Below the pieces are notes generated by a model. It saw only the letters and a list, made by a program, of their open reading frames with translations. It was not told the origin of the DNA and searched no databases. 64,000 bases of DNA from Aquimarina sp. MAR_2010_214 (GTDB lineage: Bacteria > Bacteroidota > Bacteroidia > Flavobacteriales > Flavobacteriaceae): assembly GCF_002846555.1 (NCBI RefSeq), contig NZ_PJMS01000001.1, positions 1,488,001-1,552,000 on the forward strand, in the 5' to 3' direction. Below, in pieces: positions 36,910 through 64,000 of the stretch. Position numbers and translations under genes: made by a program. Each line of letters opens with the position of its first letter. The stretch's first letter is position 1.

Positions 36910-37097
36910 CATGTTTTTGCTCAATATTTTAAAGAGTTTATAATTTACCAGATAGTATTTAGTTTTTGTATTGAAAAATATTCATCTTTATTGTTAAATA
37001 ATTAACTATAAATCATGATAATTGTGATTTTTTAGTGTTTTTATTGTTAAAAAAGAATATTTGAGTACCTTAATAAAGAATGCTTAGTATACTTCAA

Positions 37098-39299
37098 ATG
37101 AAATTGCCTCTACATATTATTTGTTTTCTTTTGTATTTAGCAAAGGCTTCTTTGCTTGCACAAGTCTCTCAAAGCAAAATAAATCCTGATAGTATTAAGC
37201 AAGTTCTGGAGAAATCTGCAGAATCATTTTCAAAGTTAACAAAAGAAGAAACAGAAAAAGGAATTCATCTATTAGAACAGGCAGAAAAATTGGCAGATAG
37301 ACTCAATGATCCTTATTCTAAAATTTTGGTGAATAGAGATAAGTTAAGTTTTTTCTTTAATAATAATGATACAATAAGTATTGAAAAATATTTAACTAAA
37401 AACCTTGATATTATCAAACAATTAGGGGATAAAAGACAATTAGGGTTGTATTATGAAGATGTAGGGGTTTATAATGCTTCACAAGGAAAAGAAAAGGAAG
37501 CACATTATGCGATGTTGATAGCAGAAAAGTTATTAAGTGAATATGGAGAAATAGAAGATGCTATAGATGTAAACTATAATCTTTGTTTACAATACCTTAG
37601 AAAAGAAAACTGGGATTCTTCGATAGAACATTGCTTAAAATCTATAGATGCGATAATAGCAACAGGGATTAAGCAGAATAGACAGAAAAACTTATATCTG
37701 TTTTTGGCGCGGAATTATATTAATCTGGGAAAATTTGAAAAAGCAGAAAAATGTTTTGAGAATATAGAAAAAGATGAGGCTGCATTTGATGATCCCCATT
37801 TTAAAGGAAAGTATTTTTCTGTAAAAGGTTTTTTTTATGATGGAATAAAAGATTATAAAAAGGCTGCTTTTTATTATAATAAATCTTCTAAAAGTTTCTA
37901 TGAATATCACAGTAAAAGAACAAAAGAAGTAAGTGCTTCTCTTATTTTATCGAGCCAATTGGATCTTCAGAAAGAAGAAAATAAAAGAATAAAAATAGAG
38001 AATGAATTAAAGATGCAGGGACTAAAGAATAGAGGTTATATTATTTCTTTAGGTGTGCTAATCATTTTTGGATTAATAATCTTAAGTGTAATTCAGTATA
38101 GAGTTTCTAGATATAAAACGAATATAAATAAGCTACTTAAAAGAAATAATGAACAGTTAGTAGGAGCCAATCAAAAAGTTGATAAAGCTTTAGAAATTAA
38201 ATCAGAATTTTTAGACTCAGTTACACATGAGCTTCTTACTCCTTTAAATACAATTAAGGGAACTACTTTTTTATTACAAAAAGAAAAATTAACGACACAT
38301 CAGGTAAATCAAATTAAATTAATTAATGTATCCAGTGATTATCTGTTAAATTTAATTAATGATGTTATTCAATTAAATGATCTCGAAAAAGAAAATTTAG
38401 AACTAAGAAATGAAGAATTCGACTTAAAATCATTATTAAATAATCTTATCGACTCTTCCTTAATGATGAAGAATAATGGTAATGAAATTCATAGAAAAAT
38501 TGATAGTGATATTCCAAGTATTCTAAAAGGGGATATGCTTAAAATCTCTCGGATTATTCTAAACATATTAGATAATGCTTTAAAATTTACTAGAAATGGA
38601 AATATTTATATAAAAGTATCGCTTATTTCTACTTCAAATAATAATGCAAAAGTAAAATTTTCAATACAGGATACAGGAATTGGTATGACAGAAGAACAGA
38701 TTCACAACGCTTTTGAAGCATTTCATCAAGGATCTGTTAGAATTAATAGGGAATATGGTGGTACTGGATTAGGGCTGTCTATTGTAAAAAGAATGCTGAA
38801 ATTATTAAATAGTAATATTGTTTTGAAGTCTAAACCAAAAGAAGGAACATTGGTGACATTTATAATAGATTTTGATATTCCTGAACCGATAAAGGAAGAA
38901 AATATTCTTTTTGAAAATGATTCAAATCAATTGCAAGAAAACATCAATGTTTTATTAGTAGAAGATAATAAAGTGAATCAGTTAATCACAAAAAAAATAA
39001 TTTCTAACTATGGATTTTGTTGTGACTCTGCATACGATGGTATTGAAGCAGTAGACATGGTTAAGGAAAATGAATATTCAATGGTGTTAATGGATATTAT
39101 GATGCCAAAAATGGATGGTTTTGAGGCTACAACAAATATAAGAGAGTTTAATAACCAAATACCTATAGTTGCATTAACTGCACTATCAGAAAAATTAAAC
39201 AAAGAACGTTTTGACGAAGTTGGGATTTTTAAAATTCTTCAAAAACCTGTGAATCCCAAACAACTATATGAAGTGCTTGTAGATTGTAGCAAAAGATAA
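37098..39299 (+). CDS. Hybrid sensor histidine kinase/response regulator, first of a tandem pair
   Basis: The frame opens at 37080, but the ATG at 37098 (733 residues, MKLPLHIICFLLYLA...) aligns with the start of the paralogue at 39556 and with a signal peptide. The periplasmic part is helical and TPR-like (about 30-310; KNLYLFLARNYINLGKFEKAEK, in part). One membrane span lies at about 314-333. The HisKA domain has phospho-His H377 (SVTHELLTPLN). The HATPase_c domain has ILNILDNALKFT, DTGIGM and YGGTGLGLSIV. A C-terminal receiver has acceptor D666 (MVLMDIMMPKMDGFE). There is no DNA-binding domain, so an output protein or phosphotransfer partner must lie elsewhere. Confidence 0.92.
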   Translation: MKLPLHIICFLLYLAKASLLAQVSQSKINPDSIKQVLEKSAESFSKLTKEETEKGIHLLEQAEKLADRLNDPYSKILVNRDKLSFFFNNNDTISIEKYLTKNLDIIKQLGDKRQLGLYYEDVGVYNASQGKEKEAHYAMLIAEKLLSEYGEIEDAIDVNYNLCLQYLRKENWDSSIEHCLKSIDAIIATGIKQNRQKNLYLFLARNYINLGKFEKAEKCFENIEKDEAAFDDPHFKGKYFSVKGFFYDGIKDYKKAAFYYNKSSKSFYEYHSKRTKEVSASLILSSQLDLQKEENKRIKIENELKMQGLKNRGYIISLGVLIIFGLIILSVIQYRVSRYKTNINKLLKRNNEQLVGANQKVDKALEIKSEFLDSVTHELLTPLNTIKGTTFLLQKEKLTTHQVNQIKLINVSSDYLLNLINDVIQLNDLEKENLELRNEEFDLKSLLNNLIDSSLMMKNNGNEIHRKIDSDIPSILKGDMLKISRIILNILDNALKFTRNGNIYIKVSLISTSNNNAKVKFSIQDTGIGMTEEQIHNAFEAFHQGSVRINREYGGTGLGLSIVKRMLKLLNSNIVLKSKPKEGTLVTFIIDFDIPEPIKEENILFENDSNQLQENINVLLVEDNKVNQLITKKIISNYGFCCDSAYDGIEAVDMVKENEYSMVLMDIMMPKMDGFEATTNIREFNNQIPIVALTALSEKLNKERFDEVGIFKILQKPVNPKQLYEVLVDCSKR

Positions 39300-39555
39300 A
39301 GTTATAGCGCCCTTGTTTTTAGGAAGAATTCCTGCTAAAATATTGAAAAAATACAATGATATTCTTTCAATCAGATAATAATCTATAACAATATAGGTTT
39401 TCATTAAGATTTTTCAGAAAATCAAATATTTTGTTCTACTGTAAACTATCATAGATCACAGAATTACGGTTTTTCATCGAATATTCTAAGGTTATGGAGT
39501 AAAAGACAATATATTTTAATATCTTATTAGTTAAATACTTATTAATATTCTTCAG

Positions 39556-41766
39556 ATGAAATTGAAGGTGCTTCTATATAGTATATGTTTTTTGATACAC
39601 TCTAATATCGTCTCTTTGGTAGCCCAAGTTTCTGATAAAGGCGTAAGTTCTGATAGTATAATAAAAATTTTAGAAAGATCTTCAAAGTCATTTTCAACAC
39701 AAACAAATGAAGGGAAAGAAAAAGGTGTCTATTTTCTGGAGCTTGCAGAAAAATTGATCAAAAAAGTTAATGATCCCTTGCTTGAAATAGAGATTAATAG
39801 GAAGAAAATGGAATTTTTTCTTGGAACTCGAGATACCATTAGAGTTGAAGAATACTTAGCTAAAAATCTAAAAATCATTAAACAAATAGATAATAAAAGG
39901 CAACTAGGATTGTATTATGAAGATCTTGGGGTGCACAAATCCATGCAAGGGAAAAATGAGGAAGGGTATCAAGCTTATCTTATCGCAGAACAATTATTGA
40001 GGAAATATGGTAAAACTAAGGATGTAATTGATATCAATTACAACCTTAGTCTAAGATATATAAGAAGGAAAAGGTGGAATGAAGCTATTGAGCATGCTTT
40101 AAAATCAGTAAATGCAATAAGGAAAACCGGAGTTAAACCGGATAGAAGAAAGAATTTAAATCTGTTTTTGGCAGAAAGCCATATTAACTTGAAAGAATTT
40201 GAGAAAGCAGCACTCTATTTTGACACTATAGAAAGAGAAAAATCTGCGTACTCTGGGAATTTATATTTTGAAGGAAGGTTGTTTTCTAAAAAAGGATTGT
40301 ATTATAAAGAAATGGAAGACTATAAAAATGCAGCACTTTTTTATAGTCAATCTTTCGACAATCTATTAGAATATCATAGTCAAAGAACAAGAGAAGTAAG
40401 CACAGCTCTTGCATTATCAAATCAATTAGATTTGAAAGAAGAGGAAAATAAAAGGATAAAACTAGAAAATGACTTAAAAGCAGAACAATTAGAGAATAGG
40501 GGATATATCATTTTGTTAAGCGTGATAATTATTCTGGGATTGGTGTTAATAAGTATAATTCAATATAGAATTTCTTTATATAAGACAAGGGTAAATAAAT
40601 TACTTCAAAAAAATTACAAAGAATTAGTAGAAGCAAATAAAAAAGTAGATGAAGCATTAGAAGCCAAATCAGAATTTTTGGATTCGGTAACTCATGAACT
40701 TCTTACTCCTTTAAATACAATTAAGGGAACTACATTCCTATTGCAAAAAGAAAAATTAACATCATACCAGGTGGATCAAATGAAGTTAATTAATTTGTCT
40801 AGTGACTATTTGTTGAATTTGATTGCTGATGTAATCCATTTAAATGAACTTGAAAAAGGGAAACTAGAACTAAAAAATGAGAAATTTGATCTAAAGGCGT
40901 TATTAAATAATTTGATAGATTCTTCTGTGTTGATGAAGAATAATAATAATAAGATTCATAGAAAAATAGATCATAATATTCCTGACTATCTAAAAGGAGA
41001 TGTGCTAAGAGTTTCTCAAATCTTCTTGAATATATTGGATAATGCTTTAAAATTTACTATAAACGGAGATATTTATATTGAAACCTCACTGGTTTCAAAA
41101 ACAGATAATAATGTAGAGATAGAATTTTCTATCCGAGATACTGGTATAGGCATGTCAGAAATGCAAATTAGTAAAGCTTTTGAAGCTTTTCATCAAGGGT
41201 CAGTTAAAATCAATAGAAAATATGGAGGTACAGGATTGGGGTTGTCTATTGTAAAAGAAATACTAAAATTACAAGGGAGCGATATTGTTTTAAAATCGAA
41301 ACCCGAAGAAGGGACTTTAGTTTTATTTTCGATGAAATTTGATATTCCTGAACAGCGAATAGAAAAAAATATTTTTTCAGGAAATGGTTATGACGAATCA
41401 CGAGAAGGAATTAATGTCTTATTGGTTGAAGATAATAAAGTAAATCAATTAATTACAGAAAAAATAATTTCAAATTATGGCTTTCACTGCGATTCGGCTA
41501 ATGATGGTAAAGAAGCGGTAGATATGGTTAAGAAAAATAAATATTCTATGATTTTAATGGATATTATGATGCCAAAAATGGACGGTTTTGAAGCGACAAA
41601 GTATATAAAGAAATTTAATAGAGGAATACCTATAGTTGCATTAACTGCAATATCAGAAAAATTAAATAGAAAAAAATTTAATGAAGTTGGGATATACACT
41701 GTTCTTCATAAACCTGTAGATCCCGAATTACTTTATGAAACCATTATGGGACACTGTGATAAATAG
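39556..41766 (+). CDS. Hybrid sensor histidine kinase/response regulator, second of a tandem pair
   Basis: 736 residues with the same architecture as the preceding gene: signal peptide (MKLKVLLYSICFLIHSN), TPR-like periplasmic domain, one membrane span (IILLSVIIILGLVLIS), HisKA (SVTHELLTPLN), HATPase_c (IFLNILDNALKFT, YGGTGLGLSIV) and receiver (MILMDIMMPKMDGFE). The kinase and receiver parts are nearly the same as in the first copy, even at DNA level around the His box. The periplasmic domains have diverged more. This is a tandem duplication with a possible change of signal. A 256-bp spacer without an evident terminator separates the two. It ends 4 bp before the convergent lpxB. Confidence 0.92.
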   Translation: MKLKVLLYSICFLIHSNIVSLVAQVSDKGVSSDSIIKILERSSKSFSTQTNEGKEKGVYFLELAEKLIKKVNDPLLEIEINRKKMEFFLGTRDTIRVEEYLAKNLKIIKQIDNKRQLGLYYEDLGVHKSMQGKNEEGYQAYLIAEQLLRKYGKTKDVIDINYNLSLRYIRRKRWNEAIEHALKSVNAIRKTGVKPDRRKNLNLFLAESHINLKEFEKAALYFDTIEREKSAYSGNLYFEGRLFSKKGLYYKEMEDYKNAALFYSQSFDNLLEYHSQRTREVSTALALSNQLDLKEEENKRIKLENDLKAEQLENRGYIILLSVIIILGLVLISIIQYRISLYKTRVNKLLQKNYKELVEANKKVDEALEAKSEFLDSVTHELLTPLNTIKGTTFLLQKEKLTSYQVDQMKLINLSSDYLLNLIADVIHLNELEKGKLELKNEKFDLKALLNNLIDSSVLMKNNNNKIHRKIDHNIPDYLKGDVLRVSQIFLNILDNALKFTINGDIYIETSLVSKTDNNVEIEFSIRDTGIGMSEMQISKAFEAFHQGSVKINRKYGGTGLGLSIVKEILKLQGSDIVLKSKPEEGTLVLFSMKFDIPEQRIEKNIFSGNGYDESREGINVLLVEDNKVNQLITEKIISNYGFHCDSANDGKEAVDMVKKNKYSMILMDIMMPKMDGFEATKYIKKFNRGIPIVALTAISEKLNRKKFNEVGIYTVLHKPVDPELLYETIMGHCDK

Positions 41767-47604: not shown

Positions 47605-47639
47605 AAAAACGACCTTTTACATAGGAAAAGGCCGTTTTT
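47605..47639. terminator. Bidirectional intrinsic terminator
   Basis: A 14-bp stem AAAAACGACCTTTT / AAAAGGCCGTTTTT with one mismatch, between the convergent ABC permease and the small peptide gene. Confidence 0.85.
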
Positions 47640-47662: not shown

Positions 47663-47866
47663 TTAGAAACAGACGCAATACCCATTTCTATATAACCCAC
47701 CACTATGAGGGCCTACACCACATTGCCATTGTGCAGTTCCGCAACACTCTGGATCACTACTGGGGTAGCATCGTATTAGAACAGGAACTCTACCACCAGA
47801 GATTGATTTTTGATCTTTTTTTTCAATTTTCTGGGCATCTTTTAAACTTAAAATTTTCTTCAACAT
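47663..47866 (-). CDS. Double-glycine leader, six-cysteine peptide precursor (candidate RiPP/bacteriocin)
   Basis: 67 residues. The leader (1-25) is MLKKILSLKDAQKIEKKDQ followed by KSISGG, the Bacteroidota double-glycine type cut by C39 peptidases. The predicted core is 42 residues with six cysteines at 33, 41, 42, 49, 64 and 66, rich in Gly, Tyr and Ser (CYPSSDPECCGTAQWQC). Last gene of the VKOR-peptide-peptide set, 37 bp after the second peptide gene, and ended by the terminator at 47605. An even cysteine number next to a disulfide-forming enzyme argues for three disulfides. No modification enzyme such as a lanthionine synthetase is nearby. Activity unknown; bacteriocin or signal are both possible. 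Confidence 0.75.
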   Translation of the reverse strand: MLKKILSLKDAQKIEKKDQKSISGGRVPVLIRCYPSSDPECCGTAQWQCGVGPHSGGLYRNGYCVCF

Positions 47867-47869
47867 TTC

Positions 47870-47887
47870 TTTTGGTTTTAAGATTAT
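47870..47887 (-). promoter_or_regulatory. Shared 5' element before peptide gene 1
   Basis: On the minus strand ATAATCTTAAAACCAAAA ends 3 nt before the ATG. The same sequence with one extra C precedes the other peptide gene (48071-48089). It is either a remnant of duplication or a translation-enhancing A-rich leader. Confidence 0.5.
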
Positions 47888-47903
47888 GATTCAACTAATA
47901 ATT

Positions 47904-48068
47904 TTAGAAAGGGGAACAGTATCTTCCATCACGATATTCACATCGATCAATGATACATGTACAATATGAAGGGCAGTATACCAGACAGATTGGACCATTA
48001 CCAATAATAGTACCTTGATCTTTTTTTGAAAGTATCTTGACTCCGTTCAAATTTTTAATTTCTTTCAT
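47904..48068 (-). CDS. Second six-cysteine peptide precursor with variant Gly leader
   Basis: The frame opens at 48146 inside the upstream gene. The ATG at 48068 gives 54 residues starting MKEIKNLNGVKILSKKDQ, which matches the leader of the neighbour (both have KKDQ-x-[ST]-I-x-G), so I use it. The cleavage site reads G23-N24-G25 rather than Gly-Gly. The core after it is 29-30 residues with six cysteines at 28, 32, 36, 38, 43 and 51 (ICLVYCPSYCTC). The leaders are similar but the cores share almost nothing beyond the cysteine count, typical of diversifying peptide families. It starts 31 bp after the VKOR fusion gene. Confidence 0.72.
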   Translation of the reverse strand: MKEIKNLNGVKILSKKDQGTIIGNGPICLVYCPSYCTCIIDRCEYRDGRYCSPF

Positions 48069-48070
48069 GA

Positions 48071-48089
48071 TTTTGGGTTTTAAGATTAT
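48071..48089 (-). promoter_or_regulatory. Shared 5' element before peptide gene 2
   Basis: On the minus strand ATAATCTTAAAACCCAAAA ends 2 nt before the ATG at 48068. It matches the element before the first peptide gene except for one extra C. Confidence 0.5.
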
Positions 48090-48099
48090 ATATTCTTGT

Positions 48100-49692
48100 T
48101 TATTCAGTTTCAAGAGGTTCCTGAACTTCAGAAATAGTATCTTCATGATTTTCTGTCATCATACTCATGAAGTAGAAAAATTCATTATAATTATACTTTT
48201 TAGGATATAGTGTATTATTAATAAGCGATGCAGGAGTGTAGTAGAGGTTATTTTCTTTAGCCCATTCAGATTGTTTTTTCAAAACTTCAAGATGATTTTG
48301 ATTATCTTGTGGTATACCATACTCTTTTATCCATTTGCTATGAGTTCTGTCTGCAAACCATTTGTTATAAGCAATAATAAATTCATCAGGACCTTTACTG
48401 TCGTATATTTCTAAAAGAATAAGAGCTATTTGTGTAGCCTTATCGCTTGTGTCTTCTGTTTTAACATTTAAACGAATGCTAATTTGAAGTTTATCTCCCA
48501 TAGCTTTTAAGACACGCGTGTATGCCTCAAAAGCATCTTTGCAATATCCACACATAGGATTGGTAAGGCTAATAATTTTAAAACTTGCATTAGGATTACC
48601 TAAAATAATTTCATTCGGAATTGTGGTATTATCTTCAATTTTTTCTGAAATACTAAGCAAATGATTATAAATCTGTCCATCTCTTTTGAAATGATTTAAT
48701 TTAAAGTTTTCTGCTTTAAATTTTTTATTTTCTTCTACTTTTTCTTTAGTATATAAATAGGCTAAAGCAAATAAGGAGGAGAGCATTATAAAGCTTATGC
48801 CAGCTGAAATATCAATATTAAATGGAGTATTAAGTACAGCTATGATTGCTAGCCCAATAGATATAGAACCCATTGCTAAACATACAGCACACCATTTTTT
48901 TACAATTAATGCTTGAGAATATATAGAATATAGAATAAAAGGAATGCCAATTAATGACGGGATGAATAATATACTATTGAAACCGTATAATAATTGATAT
49001 AATGAAATAGAACCAAAGAAAACTATACCTGCATCAGCTAAAGAAAAATTCTTAAAAAGTTTACCGCTATTATTGTTTATAACTTCTCCACAGTTCGTAT
49101 TTCCTACCGATGTACAAAACTGGTGCATAGCCTGTGACTGGATTCCTAAACTTTCTCGTACAGCAAAAAAACTGAAAACAACACCTGTAAATGATAATAG
49201 TAAAAAGAAGATTTGATTAATATTCCAAGATCTTCCGTAAAAAGCAAAAATTAAACTAGCTACTAATCCAACAAATAGTAAGTTTTGGATAAGAGACTGA
49301 TTAGAAATAAGTTTTTGTTTTGCATTATACTCAACTGCAATCACCTTGGGAATCCAAATCTCTTTAAATTCGTTAAAAGTAAATTTGTTTTTCTTTAAAC
49401 TGGTGTGTTTAAGTTCGATGCTATCATTTTTTTTGATTACCGTAACGATTTCCTCAGCGTTTTCTAATGTTATTAATGAAATAAAACTTTTTGGAAGTTG
49501 ATCCAAAGCATCCATAGGGATCTCTACAGCAATATTGTCAATATCAAAATAATCTAAAGTATCTGTAATTGATTGAAAACTAGGATAACTGGGGTGGATT
49601 TGTAATTGTAATTCCAAATCCTTTTTGGTATAGTTCCCAATTCTGTTTTGAATTAAAACACTTTCTACAATTTTTTCAATAGTATTATTCAT
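48100..49692 (-). CDS. C39-like/VKOR/DsbA-like fusion membrane protein (disulfide-forming)
   Basis: I use the ATG at 49692 (530 residues); the frame opens at 49734, but the family-like start is MNNTIEKIVES. Residues 1-125 resemble a C39 peptidase domain (HPSYPSFQSITDTLDYFDID, SFISLITLENAEEIVTV) without the catalytic Cys or His. After one span, a VKOR domain with four to five helices has the Cys pair C193/C201 (QFCTSVGNTNCGEV) and the quinone-side CxxC C268/C271 (KKWCAVCLAM). The C-terminal thioredoxin-fold domain has C381/C384 (NPMCGYCKDAF) and the cis-Pro in YYTPASLIN. All redox motifs are intact, so it can form disulfides and pass electrons to quinones. Position 31 bp before two six-Cys peptide genes suggests these are its substrates. 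Confidence 0.85.
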   Translation of the reverse strand: MNNTIEKIVESVLIQNRIGNYTKKDLELQLQIHPSYPSFQSITDTLDYFDIDNIAVEIPMDALDQLPKSFISLITLENAEEIVTVIKKNDSIELKHTSLKKNKFTFNEFKEIWIPKVIAVEYNAKQKLISNQSLIQNLLFVGLVASLIFAFYGRSWNINQIFFLLLSFTGVVFSFFAVRESLGIQSQAMHQFCTSVGNTNCGEVINNNSGKLFKNFSLADAGIVFFGSISLYQLLYGFNSILFIPSLIGIPFILYSIYSQALIVKKWCAVCLAMGSISIGLAIIAVLNTPFNIDISAGISFIMLSSLFALAYLYTKEKVEENKKFKAENFKLNHFKRDGQIYNHLLSISEKIEDNTTIPNEIILGNPNASFKIISLTNPMCGYCKDAFEAYTRVLKAMGDKLQISIRLNVKTEDTSDKATQIALILLEIYDSKGPDEFIIAYNKWFADRTHSKWIKEYGIPQDNQNHLEVLKKQSEWAKENNLYYTPASLINNTLYPKKYNYNEFFYFMSMMTENHEDTISEVQEPLETE

Positions 49693-49734
49693 GTATGTCA
49701 GGCTTAATGTTGCTATACTATGTAGTATTTTCAT

Positions 49735-60515: not shown

Positions 60516-63500
60516 TTAATAGTTTATATAAATCCAACCGGTTAAAGGAAGTGTTTCTTTAATATTGGTTTCTATAATATAATAATAAGCTCCTGTAGGC
60601 AATTTATCATTGCCAAGTACTAAGCGACCATTTGAGATTCCACCCCAGTTATTTTGATAATTTCTAGCTTCAAATACTTTATTTCCTGATCTGTTAAATA
60701 TTTGAATGTAGTGATTAGGGAAGTTTTCAATTCCATTAATAACCCAAGTATCATTGATGCCATCTCCATTAGGAGAGAATCCTTTGTTGAAGGTTAGCCT
60801 AGTTGAAGGTTTTTGTTTTGTATTTATTGAAAAATTATTAGATTCTACTACACCTGTACCTCCATTTCCTGCAATATCAGTATATCCTGTATTGTCTAAG
60901 GAGATCACATTGGTATCACTTTGAATATCTTCTGTTGGTGTAAATATTGCTGTGAAAGTGATATTGCCATCTGTAGAATTTACAGTTGCTAATGTTCCGT
61001 TAGGAATCGTTAAATCTGCGTTATCAAAACCAGTAACTGCTTCAGAAAAAGTAATAGTAACTGTTGCAGTTTCTCCTGTTGTTAATTCATTGTCATTTAT
61101 ACTAATAGTAGCTGTTGGAGCAGTAGTGTCATTAATAGTAATATTTACATTAGTGCTATTAGGGCAACTTCCAGAAGTTGTATAGGTAACGGTATATGTA
61201 TTAGGAGTTGACGCCGATACATCAATTGCTCCAGTACTTTCGCTAACACTTAATCCATCAGGGGTAGAAGAGAATGTGCCACCTGCTAATCCGGTAATTG
61301 TTGGTGCAGGGTCAGATCCAGATTGAGCATAGGTTGCTGCATCATATAAAAATGAAGCATCGTCTAATTCATTAATGGTAATAATGACATTAGAGCTGTT
61401 CGGGCAAGTTCCTACCGTTGTATAAGTAACGGTATACGTATTAGAAGTTGACGCCGATACATCAATTGCTCCAGTACTTGCACTAATGCTTAACCCTGCA
61501 GGGGTTGAAGAGAATGTTCCACCTGCTAGTCCTGTAATAGTTGGAGTTGGATCAGTATCATTAGTACAAAAAGCAGCTGCAGAGTAGTTAAATGAAGCAT
61601 CATCTATTGCGTTAATAGTTACAGTTACATTAGAACTATTAGGGCAAGTTCCAGCAGTTGTATAAGTAACGGTATATGTATTAGGAGTTGAAGCAGATAC
61701 ATCAATTCCTCCAGTACTTGCACTAATGCTTAATCCTGCTGGGGTCGAAGAGAATGTTCCACCCGTTAGTCCTGTAATCGTTGGAGTTGGATCAGTATCA
61801 TTAGCACAAAATGAAGCAGCAGAGTAATTAAATGAAGCATCATCTACTGCGTTAATGGTCACATTTACATTAGAACTATTCGAGCAAGCTCCTACAGTTG
61901 TATAAGTAACGGTATACGTATTAGGAGTTGACGCCGATACATCAATTGCTCCAGTACTTACACTAATGCTTAATCCTACGGGAGTAGAAGAGAATGTTCC
62001 ACCTGCTAGTCCTGTAATGGTTGGAGTTGGATCAGTATCATTAACACAAAATGAAGCAGCAGAGTAATTAAATGAAGCATCATCTATTGTATTAATAGTC
62101 ACATTTACATTAGAACTATTCGGGCAAGTTCCAGCAGTTGTATAAGTAACGGTATATGTATTAGGAGTTGAAGCAGATACATCAATTGCTCCAGTACTTG
62201 CACTAATGCTTAATCCTGCGGGGGTTGAAGAGAATGTTCCACCTGCTAGTCCTGTAATGGTTGGAGTTGGATCAGTATCATTAGTACAAAATGAAGCAGC
62301 GGAGTAATTAAATGAAGCATCATCTAGTGCGTTAATGGTTACAGTTACATTAGAACTATTCGGGCAAGTTCCTGCCGTTGTATAAGTAACGGTATATGTA
62401 TTAGGAGTTGAAGCAGATACATCAATTACTCCAGTACTTGCACTAATACTTAATCCTGCTGGGGTCGAAGAGAATGTTCCACCTGCTAGTCCTGTAATCG
62501 TTGGAGTTGGATCGGTATCATTAGTACAAAAAGCAGCTGCAGAGTAGTTAAATGAAGCATCATCTATTGCATTAATGGTTACAGTTACATTAGAACTATT
62601 CGGGCAAGTTCCTGCGGTTGTATAAGTAACGGTATATGTATTAGGAGTTGAAGCAGATACATCAATTACTCCAGTACTTGCACTAATACTTAATCCTGCA
62701 GGGGTCGAAGAGAATGTTCCACCTGCTAGTCCTGTAATAGTTGGAGTTGGATCGGTATCATTAGTACAAAAAGCAGCTGCAGAGTAGTTAAATGAAGCAT
62801 CATCTATTGCATTAATGGTTACAGTTACATTAGAACTATTCGGGCAAGTTCCAGCAGTTGTATAAGTAACGGTATATGTATTAGGAGTTGAAGCAGATAC
62901 ATCAATTGCTCCAGTACTTGCACTAATGCTTAATCCTGCGGGGGTTGAAGAGAATGTTCCACCTGCTAGTCCTGTAATGGTTGGAGTTGGATCGGTATCA
63001 TTAGTACAAAATGAAGCAGCAGAGTAATTAAATGAAGCATCATCTATTGCATTAATGGTTACAGTTACATTAGAACTATTCGGGCAAGTTCCGGCGGTTG
63101 TATAAGTAACGGTATATGTATTAGGAGTTGAAGCAGATACATCAATTCCTCCAGTACTTGCACTAATACTTAATCCTGCTGGGGTCGAAGAGAATGTTCC
63201 ACCCGTTAGTCCTGTAATCGTTGGAGTTGGATCAGTATCATTAGCACAAAATGAAGCAGCAGAGTAATTAAATGAAGCATCATCTATTGTATTAATAGTC
63301 ACATTTACATTAGAACTATTTGAGCAAGCTCCTACAGTTGTATAAGTAACGGTATATGTGTTAGGAGTTGAGGTCGATACATCAATTGCTCCAGTACTTG
63401 CACTAATGCTTAATCCTGCTGGAGTCGAAGAGAATGTTCCACCTGTTACTCCTGTAATCGTTGGAGTTGGATCAGTATCATTAACACAAAATGAAGCAGC

Positions 63501-64000
63501 AGAGTAGTTAAATGAAGCATCATCTATTGTGTTAATAGTCACATTTACATTAGAACTATTCGGGCAAGTTCCGGCGGTTGTATAAGTAACGGTATATGTA
63601 TTAGGAGTTGAAGCAGATACATCAATTCCTCCAGTACTTGCACTAATGCTTAATCCTGCTGGGGTCGAAGAGAATGTTCCACCTGTTACTCCTGTAATCG
63701 TTGGAGTTGGATCAGTATCATTAACACAAAATGAGGCGGCAGAGTAGTTAAATGAAGCATTTTCCAGATTAGTGACATTCACTGTGACGCTTCCACAAGA
63801 ACCGGGTGTTACACAGCCACCTTCGCCTCGTACATAATAAGTAGTAGAAGGTGAAGAAGGGGTTACTGCAATAGTAGATGAAGCAGTTGTAGCTACTTGT
63901 GTTCCTCCACAAGAACCGGTATATACTACCCATTGTGTTGCATCATTTAAAGAACCAGTGATGGTTAAGGTAGCATTGTTGCCATTACATATTGTTGATG
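60516..64000 (-). CDS. Giant T9SS-secreted repeat adhesin (5' end outside window)
   Basis: The frame is open from the right edge to a stop at 60516, giving 1160 visible residues. The GTG at 63782 is internal, because codons continue without a stop upstream of it (...YYVRGEGGC...). Eleven 80-residue repeats follow, ten of them nearly identical, each with two conserved Cys (SFC and GTCPNSS). The eleventh lacks the first Cys (TYAQSGSDPAPT). An Ig-like domain (TATISINDNELTTGETATVTI, quoted in part) and a gliding-type C-terminal sorting domain (FSPNGDGINDTWVI ... PTGAYYYIIET) come last. Inference: a SprB-like cell-surface adhesin, exported by T9SS with the adjacent PorP/SprF-like protein. Full size unknown. 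Confidence 0.9.
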   Translation of the reverse strand, partial: STICNGNNATLTITGSLNDATQWVVYTGSCGGTQVATTASSTIAVTPSSPSTTYYVRGEGGCVTPGSCGSVTVNVTNLENASFNYSAASFCVNDTDPTPTITGVTGGTFSSTPAGLSISASTGGIDVSASTPNTYTVTYTTAGTCPNSSNVNVTINTIDDASFNYSAASFCVNDTDPTPTITGVTGGTFSSTPAGLSISASTGAIDVSTSTPNTYTVTYTTVGACSNSSNVNVTINTIDDASFNYSAASFCANDTDPTPTITGLTGGTFSSTPAGLSISASTGGIDVSASTPNTYTVTYTTAGTCPNSSNVTVTINAIDDASFNYSAASFCTNDTDPTPTITGLAGGTFSSTPAGLSISASTGAIDVSASTPNTYTVTYTTAGTCPNSSNVTVTINAIDDASFNYSAAAFCTNDTDPTPTITGLAGGTFSSTPAGLSISASTGVIDVSASTPNTYTVTYTTAGTCPNSSNVTVTINAIDDASFNYSAAAFCTNDTDPTPTITGLAGGTFSSTPAGLSISASTGVIDVSASTPNTYTVTYTTAGTCPNSSNVTVTINALDDASFNYSAASFCTNDTDPTPTITGLAGGTFSSTPAGLSISASTGAIDVSASTPNTYTVTYTTAGTCPNSSNVNVTINTIDDASFNYSAASFCVNDTDPTPTITGLAGGTFSSTPVGLSISVSTGAIDVSASTPNTYTVTYTTVGACSNSSNVNVTINAVDDASFNYSAASFCANDTDPTPTITGLTGGTFSSTPAGLSISASTGGIDVSASTPNTYTVTYTTAGTCPNSSNVTVTINAIDDASFNYSAAAFCTNDTDPTPTITGLAGGTFSSTPAGLSISASTGAIDVSASTSNTYTVTYTTVGTCPNSSNVIITINELDDASFLYDAATYAQSGSDPAPTITGLAGGTFSSTPDGLSVSESTGAIDVSASTPNTYTVTYTTSGSCPNSTNVNITINDTTAPTATISINDNELTTGETATVTITFSEAVTGFDNADLTIPNGTLATVNSTDGNITFTAIFTPTEDIQSDTNVISLDNTGYTDIAGNGGTGVVESNNFSINTKQKPSTRLTFNKGFSPNGDGINDTWVINGIENFPNHYIQIFNRSGNKVFEARNYQNNWGGISNGRLVLGNDKLPTGAYYYIIETNIKETLPLTGWIYINY
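61119..63758 (-). repeat. Eleven tandem 240-bp coding repeats
   Basis: The landmark aatgaagcat recurs at 61351, 61591, 61831, 62071, 62311, 62551, 62791, 63031, 63271, 63511 and 63751, always exactly 240 bp apart. Units therefore contain no insertions or deletions. The unit at the 3' end of the gene (61119-61358) is the most diverged. Confidence 0.95.

Follow-up and report, generated by a model that had tools for sequence, protein, structure and literature searches.

We analyzed a 64,000-nucleotide stretch of the Aquimarina sp. MAR_2010_214 chromosome (contig NZ_PJMS01000001.1, positions 1,488,001 to 1,552,000; hereafter the window), in which three co-directional open reading frames (ORFs) on the minus strand, separated by gaps of 31 and 37 bp that can be read directly from the sequence, encode a membrane protein composed of a C39-like domain, a VKOR part, and a DsbA-like thioredoxin domain (the fusion) and two small cysteine-rich precursor peptides (Table 1). 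The fusion is probably a dedicated, leader-guided disulfide-forming enzyme that acts on the cytoplasmic face before export, a reading to which we assign a probability of roughly 0.6. A first-pass annotation of the same DNA had already taken the three genes for a disulfide-peptide system, which was borne out by the sequence, and the system turned out to be larger than the window.

Pfam searches with the fusion gave matches above cut-off to VKOR (1.3e-12) and Thioredoxin_4 (1.6e-5), in agreement with the earlier claim that one membrane protein unites a VKOR CxxC and a thioredoxin CxxC. The fold, the loop cysteine pair, and the CxxC motif of the VKOR family (PF07884) are all present, and the redox cysteines are invariant. 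A third cysteine of the thioredoxin domain, at residue 492 in the numbering of the 544-aa frame, occurs in 41/54 fusion representatives and is an alanine in the window protein. The N-terminal domain, which had been left unnamed, is by its sequence a C39-like domain that has lost the catalytic cysteine. It has the fold of Peptidase_C39 (PF03412), to which residues 34-137 gave a Pfam match below the cut-off (16.8 vs. 22 bits). The column of the catalytic cysteine is deleted in all 54 representatives, and the histidine and aspartate columns are kept in 1 and 8 of them, respectively, whereas Cys, His, and Asp are all present in the 15 C39 exporters used for comparison. Fusion members with an active C39 site were considered and rejected: ten of the 54 carry a cysteine upstream of the HP motif, some as MDNC, and none of these lies within three columns of the catalytic position. 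The motif HPxxPS is found in the same domain, with the histidine in 48/54 and the first proline in 49/54 representatives. Structure matches of the domain include the C39-like domain of HlyB (3zua, 7sgr), which has the same fold without peptidase activity and is part of an ABC exporter, whereas here the domain is part of an oxidase. A C39-like domain devoid of its catalytic cysteine, which we propose to be the leader-docking site, gives a reason for the fusion architecture.

Hydropathy and the structure model agree on six helices in the fusion, with the VKOR fold beginning at helix 2. The additional transmembrane helix 1 (TM1) reaches a best 19-residue hydropathy of at least 1.6 in 51/54 representatives, and hydropathy revealed no hydrophobic segment ahead of it. 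In the six-helix arrangement, the C39-like domain, the cysteine loop, the CxxC motif, and the thioredoxin domain all come to lie on the same side, and the loops on the other, non-redox side are only 3-6 residues long in the model. Lysines plus arginines are more numerous on the redox side in all 54 representatives, and the net charge is higher there in 50 of them, with a mean difference of +3.6. Canonical VKORs of the same phylum have fewer lysines plus arginines on the redox side in 20/20 controls (mean -7.3), so that the canonical pattern of positive charges opposite the redox side is found in none of the 54 fusions versus all 20 control VKORs. These controls remained from 30 loci after five had been dropped (L140, a fusion; L157, truncated and fusion-like; L147 and L158, wrong frames; and L143, by its listing a repeat of L142) and five others had no usable anchors (L136, L146, L150, L154, and L155). 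Judged by sequence and model, the C39-like domain and both redox centers probably face the cytoplasm, in a topology that is inverted relative to ordinary VKORs. Helix count and charge distribution thus place the active parts on the likely cytoplasmic side, where leaders exist, and disulfides are therefore probably formed on leader-bearing precursors before export. By the same evidence, the earlier proposal that oxidation accompanies or follows export is probably incorrect.

An unlikely alternative is that the same system operates in ordinary topology, with the C39-like domain, the VKOR loop, and the thioredoxin domain in the periplasm, where cores would be oxidized after export and the C39-like domain would bind leader fragments or such leader-bearing peptides as get into the periplasm. 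The gene-association evidence fits this equally well, and ordinary VKOR-thioredoxin proteins function outside the cytoplasm. However, the canonical orientation was judged less likely from the charge comparison with the 20 ordinary VKORs, a soluble N-domain of about 120 residues would have to be translocated without a visible signal segment, and a leader-binding domain in the periplasm would be left without its ligand, because C39 exporters cleave leaders off on the cytoplasmic side.

The precursors share a leader with the consensus QKLNGAKALNKEEQKDINGG. Double-glycine leaders typically end in GG, GA, or GS and have hydrophobic residues at positions such as -4 and -12, and the leaders found here have the features of this type. 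The leader of ORF1 ends in GG, and that of ORF2 in GN, an ending that recurs in relatives at loci L094 and L095. With a leader profile evaluated by two-fold cross-validation at a 12-bit threshold, the halves of which share relatives, 127/541 small ORFs located up to 2.5 kb downstream on the strand of the fusion matched, as compared to 24/942 further downstream, 25/1284 upstream, 0/122 inside the fusion, and 8/4104 on the opposite strand. A lack of conservation of the small ORFs next to related fusion genes, which the first-pass annotation had named beforehand as speaking against its proposal, was not observed as the general case: at 10 bits, at least one same-leader ORF on the strand of the fusion was detected at 64/91 homologous loci, namely at 24/39 Aquimarina-type loci (L087-L125) and 40/52 others. 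Forty-two related loci from named genome records comprise 36 from Aquimarina, three that group with the Aquimarina ones (L090, L092, and L120), and three more distant ones (L126-L128). One of seven relatives tested scored above the cut-off of bacteriocin_sig (TIGR01847; 18.8 vs. 15.7), and with leader_Chryseo (NF047798) and Bacteroid_pep (PF14406) the seven relatives stayed below cut-off or did not match; the window peptides matched none of these three models.

Both small ORFs of the window have orthologues in other species with aligned cysteines, and pN/pS, the ratio of nonsynonymous to synonymous differences per site, is 0.16-0.25 and 0.30-0.34, with synonymous sites near saturation in some pairs; by this measure, the orthologues are under purifying selection. 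The cores as a whole are hypervariable, as 176 cores of at least 12 residues fell into 101 clusters, with some families recurring across species. Among 177 distinct cores, the number of cysteines is even and non-zero in 144, odd in 20, and zero in 13; the counts are mostly four or six and rarely odd. For counts of 3-8 cysteines, 139 cores are even and 19 odd, versus 327 even and 650 odd control ORFs; a broader control of ORFs with at least two cysteines (1229 even, 661 odd) is dominated by two-cysteine ORFs. The profile used for precursor searches (A3) was built from cysteine-rich peptides and hence favors matches that bear cysteines, yet not even numbers of them. In the genome of the window, all 27 precursor matches (E ≤ 0.1), two of which lie in the window, are even, with 14 six-, 10 four-, 2 two-, and 1 eight-cysteine cores; some of the 27 are interrelated, and L183 and L185 were cut at GG by eye. 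The earlier description of glycine-type leaders followed by six cysteines per core is thus correct for both window ORFs, whereas six as a general rule was rejected, being one instance of a mostly even number.

Two further groups of peptides occur near related fusions. At L087-L091 and L093, further same-leader precursors, located upstream of the fusion at a distance of about 0.4-2 kb, have a C-C-CC-C-C spacing that resembles knottins; the one knottin-like core tested matched no solved structure. At L088-L091, peptides with similar leaders, in up to four copies downstream of the fusion, have cysteine-free cores (DPLTN...) and represent cargo of another kind. Comparison of two cores with solved structures gave nothing useful, with a single match at E 0.67 for one and none for the other, the knottin-like one.

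It is distinctly improbable that the C39-like domain represents a degenerate relic or an exporter-docking module and that the core is recognized instead of the leader. In line with this explanation, the catalytic cysteine is gone, and some C39-like domains, that of HlyB among them, bind parts of the substrate that are not a double-glycine leader; a relic, however, would not be expected to keep the HPxxPS motif, and recognition of the core is difficult to reconcile with conserved leaders on cores of such diversity.

Precursors and fusion also occur together across genomes. Among 37 Aquimarina genomes, 31 have precursor matches (E 0.01; up to 58 per genome), and these 31 are also the ones that carry the fusion or a diverged homologue of it, the remaining six lacking both (p 4e-7, or 2e-5 without two genomes below 90% completeness; both values are optimistic owing to shared ancestry). 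G681 and G691 have only diverged fusion homologues and one precursor match each. No VKOR match was found in the six genomes without the fusion. C39 matches are still present in the four of them that are near-complete: three have frames of 719-752 aa, and G683 has frames of 329 and 338 aa. Fusion matches were obtained in 42 of 299 genomes of the family, or 40 after dropping G085 and G265 (E 7e-4, 253-aa frames). With the same profile and up to 21 candidates scored per genome, precursor matches were found in 28/40 genomes with the fusion versus 3/259 without it. C39 matches beyond the fusion itself, partial ones counted, were present in 39/40 versus 54/259 genomes; among those with the fusion, G200 has a single weak match and G153 a match in a 290-aa frame.

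Outside the Aquimarina-type loci, a C39 exporter lies no more than 6.5 kb from 34/53 fusions, with two fusions sharing one exporter, and in 32 of these 34 cases it is located downstream on the same strand. No C39 exporter was found beside Aquimarina-type fusions in 41 stretches, even with a broad rule. In G684, G692, G695, G700, G706, and G714, a diverged fusion (30-34% identity) directly adjoins a C39 exporter frame, and by sequence Aquimarina seems to have two versions of the fusion, one of the operon type and one without an exporter. As anticipated in the first-pass annotation, the exporter of the system studied here must be sought outside the window, and two C39 exporters are encoded elsewhere in the chromosome. 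The one at 4720695-4722899, which is followed by an HlyD_3 protein, shares 47.6-76.7% identity (median 73.5%) with 33 fusion-adjacent exporters and is thus of their type; the second shares 28.0-30.7%. The former is the likely candidate for the export of the precursors. The second exporter lies in a region (L003 6224-13369; chromosome ~4149223-4156368) that also encodes an HlyD protein, several peptides with double-glycine leaders, and a LANC_like protein (PF05147, 170 bits; no LanM-type match above cut-off), and which by its gene content is a separate peptide cluster.

It is hardly probable that the fusion oxidizes exported proteins in general, with the peptides as chance neighbors or as only some of many clients. 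In favor of this reading, VKOR-thioredoxin proteins do act as general oxidases elsewhere, and the fusion is the sole VKOR match in the genome of the window. However, a housekeeping role was rejected from its distribution over only about 40 of 299 family genomes and 31 of 37 Aquimarina genomes, the latter being those with precursors, and the fused C39-like domain and the exporters nearby also argue against it.

Our computations show the gene structure, the folds predicted for the domains, the absence of the C39 catalytic cysteine, the invariance of the redox cysteines, the conservation of the leaders, a mostly even cysteine parity, the co-occurrence of the fusion with precursors and with exporters, and the charge asymmetry, whereas the binding of leaders, the direction in which electrons flow, the side of the membrane, and the sequence of oxidation and cleavage are inferred. 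In the proposed mechanism, any of the precursors would dock on the C39-like domain by its double-glycine leader, and the DsbA-like domain would then transfer disulfides to the core cysteines. The VKOR part would re-oxidize the DsbA-like domain and pass the electrons to the membrane quinone, with all oxidation steps taking place at the cytoplasmic face of the inner membrane. Subsequently, the oxidized precursor would be handed to a C39 ABC exporter with its HlyD-type partner, which would cut off the leader and secrete the mature peptide. We rate at somewhat better than even the complete picture of a topology-inverted VKOR that uses a leader-docking C39-like domain to introduce disulfides into dozens of hypervariable precursors in the cytoplasm, followed by C39 cleavage and secretion.

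Several observations weigh against this picture. The examined stretch contains no leader ORF at 27/91 loci (15 Aquimarina-type, 12 others), and NCBIfam models gave no match on either window peptide. Of the 13 cysteine-free cores, 12 form one cluster with a similar leader, which is therefore not restricted to cysteine-rich cores. G028, G069, and G263 have precursor matches without the fusion or any VKOR match, and the genus-wide test is partly circular because profile A3 includes peptides of some Aquimarina genomes, which therefore match by construction. The positive-inside rule is a statistical tendency, the 54 representatives descend from a common ancestor, several of the 20 controls are close relatives, and a DsbA-like domain that is active in the reducing cytoplasm would be unusual. 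The isolated N-domain was modeled at low confidence, with a predicted local distance difference test (pLDDT) score of 64, weaker than within the full model, and its best Z score, 7.5, is equally reached by other papain-like folds. Finally, the exporter at 4720695-4722899 adjoins a grasp-with-spasm cluster (L004 3192-5887; chromosome ~4715191-4717886) of small peptides, an ATP-grasp maturase (TIGR04192, 306.7 vs. cut-off 230), and a SPASM partner (TIGR04193, 181.5 vs. 175), which is possibly its main client; the exporter may serve both this cluster and the precursors.

The fusion was numbered from the ATG at 49692, which is the conserved start (M1 is invariant in a 34-row alignment) and had also been chosen in the first-pass annotation; its longest ORF, 48100-49734 (544 aa), extends past this position. 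The hairpin behind the last gene is suggestive at most, as one was seen against a mean of 1.0 in shuffled sequence. Ordinary genes flank the locus, namely those for a permease and a DNA/RNA non-specific endonuclease (Pfam) and, by inspection, cell-wall synthesis genes. Elsewhere in the window, a tandem pair of paralogues (37080-41766; 739 and 736 aa) looks like hybrid histidine kinases upon inspection, and a large, very repetitive protein with the repeat unit ...DTDPTPTITG... is encoded on the minus strand at 60516-63782.

Table 1. Features of the fusion locus (window coordinates)
Feature	Position	Strand	Description
C39-like / VKOR / DsbA-like fusion	48100..49692	-	530 aa from conserved ATG at 49692
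C39-like domain	49330..49692	-	residues 1-121; without catalytic Cys; proposed leader-docking domain
Extra transmembrane helix TM1	49234..49293	-	residues 134-153; N-terminal to VKOR fold
VKOR part	48817..49233	-	residues 154-292; loop Cys pair C193/C201 and WC268xxC271
DsbA-like thioredoxin domain	48139..48648	-	residues 349-518; C381-G-Y-C384
Precursor peptide 2 (ORF2)	47904..48068	-	54 aa; 24-aa leader ending TIIGN; 30-aa core, six Cys
Precursor peptide 1 (ORF1)	47663..47866	-	67 aa; 25-aa leader ending SISGG; 42-aa core, six Cys
Terminator-like hairpin	47605..47639	-	14 pairs, T tail; 3' of last gene

Class II bacteriocin operons of the pediocin PA-1 type encode a precursor, the thioredoxin-like protein PedC, and the C39 exporter PedD. 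They have in common with the present system a double-glycine leader, a cysteine-rich core with putative disulfides, a dedicated thioredoxin-like protein, and a C39 ABC exporter, whereas here the oxidase is a single polypeptide that carries both a VKOR regenerator of its own and an inactive C39-like domain, is predicted to work on the cytoplasmic side, and has many dispersed precursors. VKOR-thioredoxin fusions occur in bacteria such as Synechococcus and likewise combine VKOR cysteine pairs with a fused thioredoxin-like domain; the extra N-terminal helix, the C39-like domain, and the inverted charge distribution set the present fusion apart from them. Archaeal VKOR homologues (Aeropyrum) have been proposed to face the cytoplasm and hence share the proposed inverted orientation, and we know of no leader-docking domain or peptide cargo in their case. 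In the prochlorosin system, one leader-guided enzyme, ProcM, likewise serves dozens of precursors that are scattered and have hypervariable cores, with the difference that ProcM forms thioether rings and the enzyme described here presumably disulfides. To our knowledge, a VKOR-DsbA protein with a proposed leader-docking domain, inverted charges, and scattered even-cysteine precursors is new, which does not establish its absence from print.

If our reading is true, disulfide-rich bacterial peptides would have their own leader-guided enzyme, as is the case in other classes of ribosomally synthesized and post-translationally modified peptides (RiPPs), and the system would be the disulfide counterpart of those RiPP systems in which one enzyme serves many precursors. 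It would also mean that disulfides are formed deliberately in the reducing cytoplasm by coupling to quinones, and the enzyme might be put to use for forming disulfides, within the cytoplasm, in cores that are attached downstream of the leader. The even-cysteine precursors with a shared leader, with up to 58 matches per Aquimarina genome, would then constitute a large unexplored collection of peptides.
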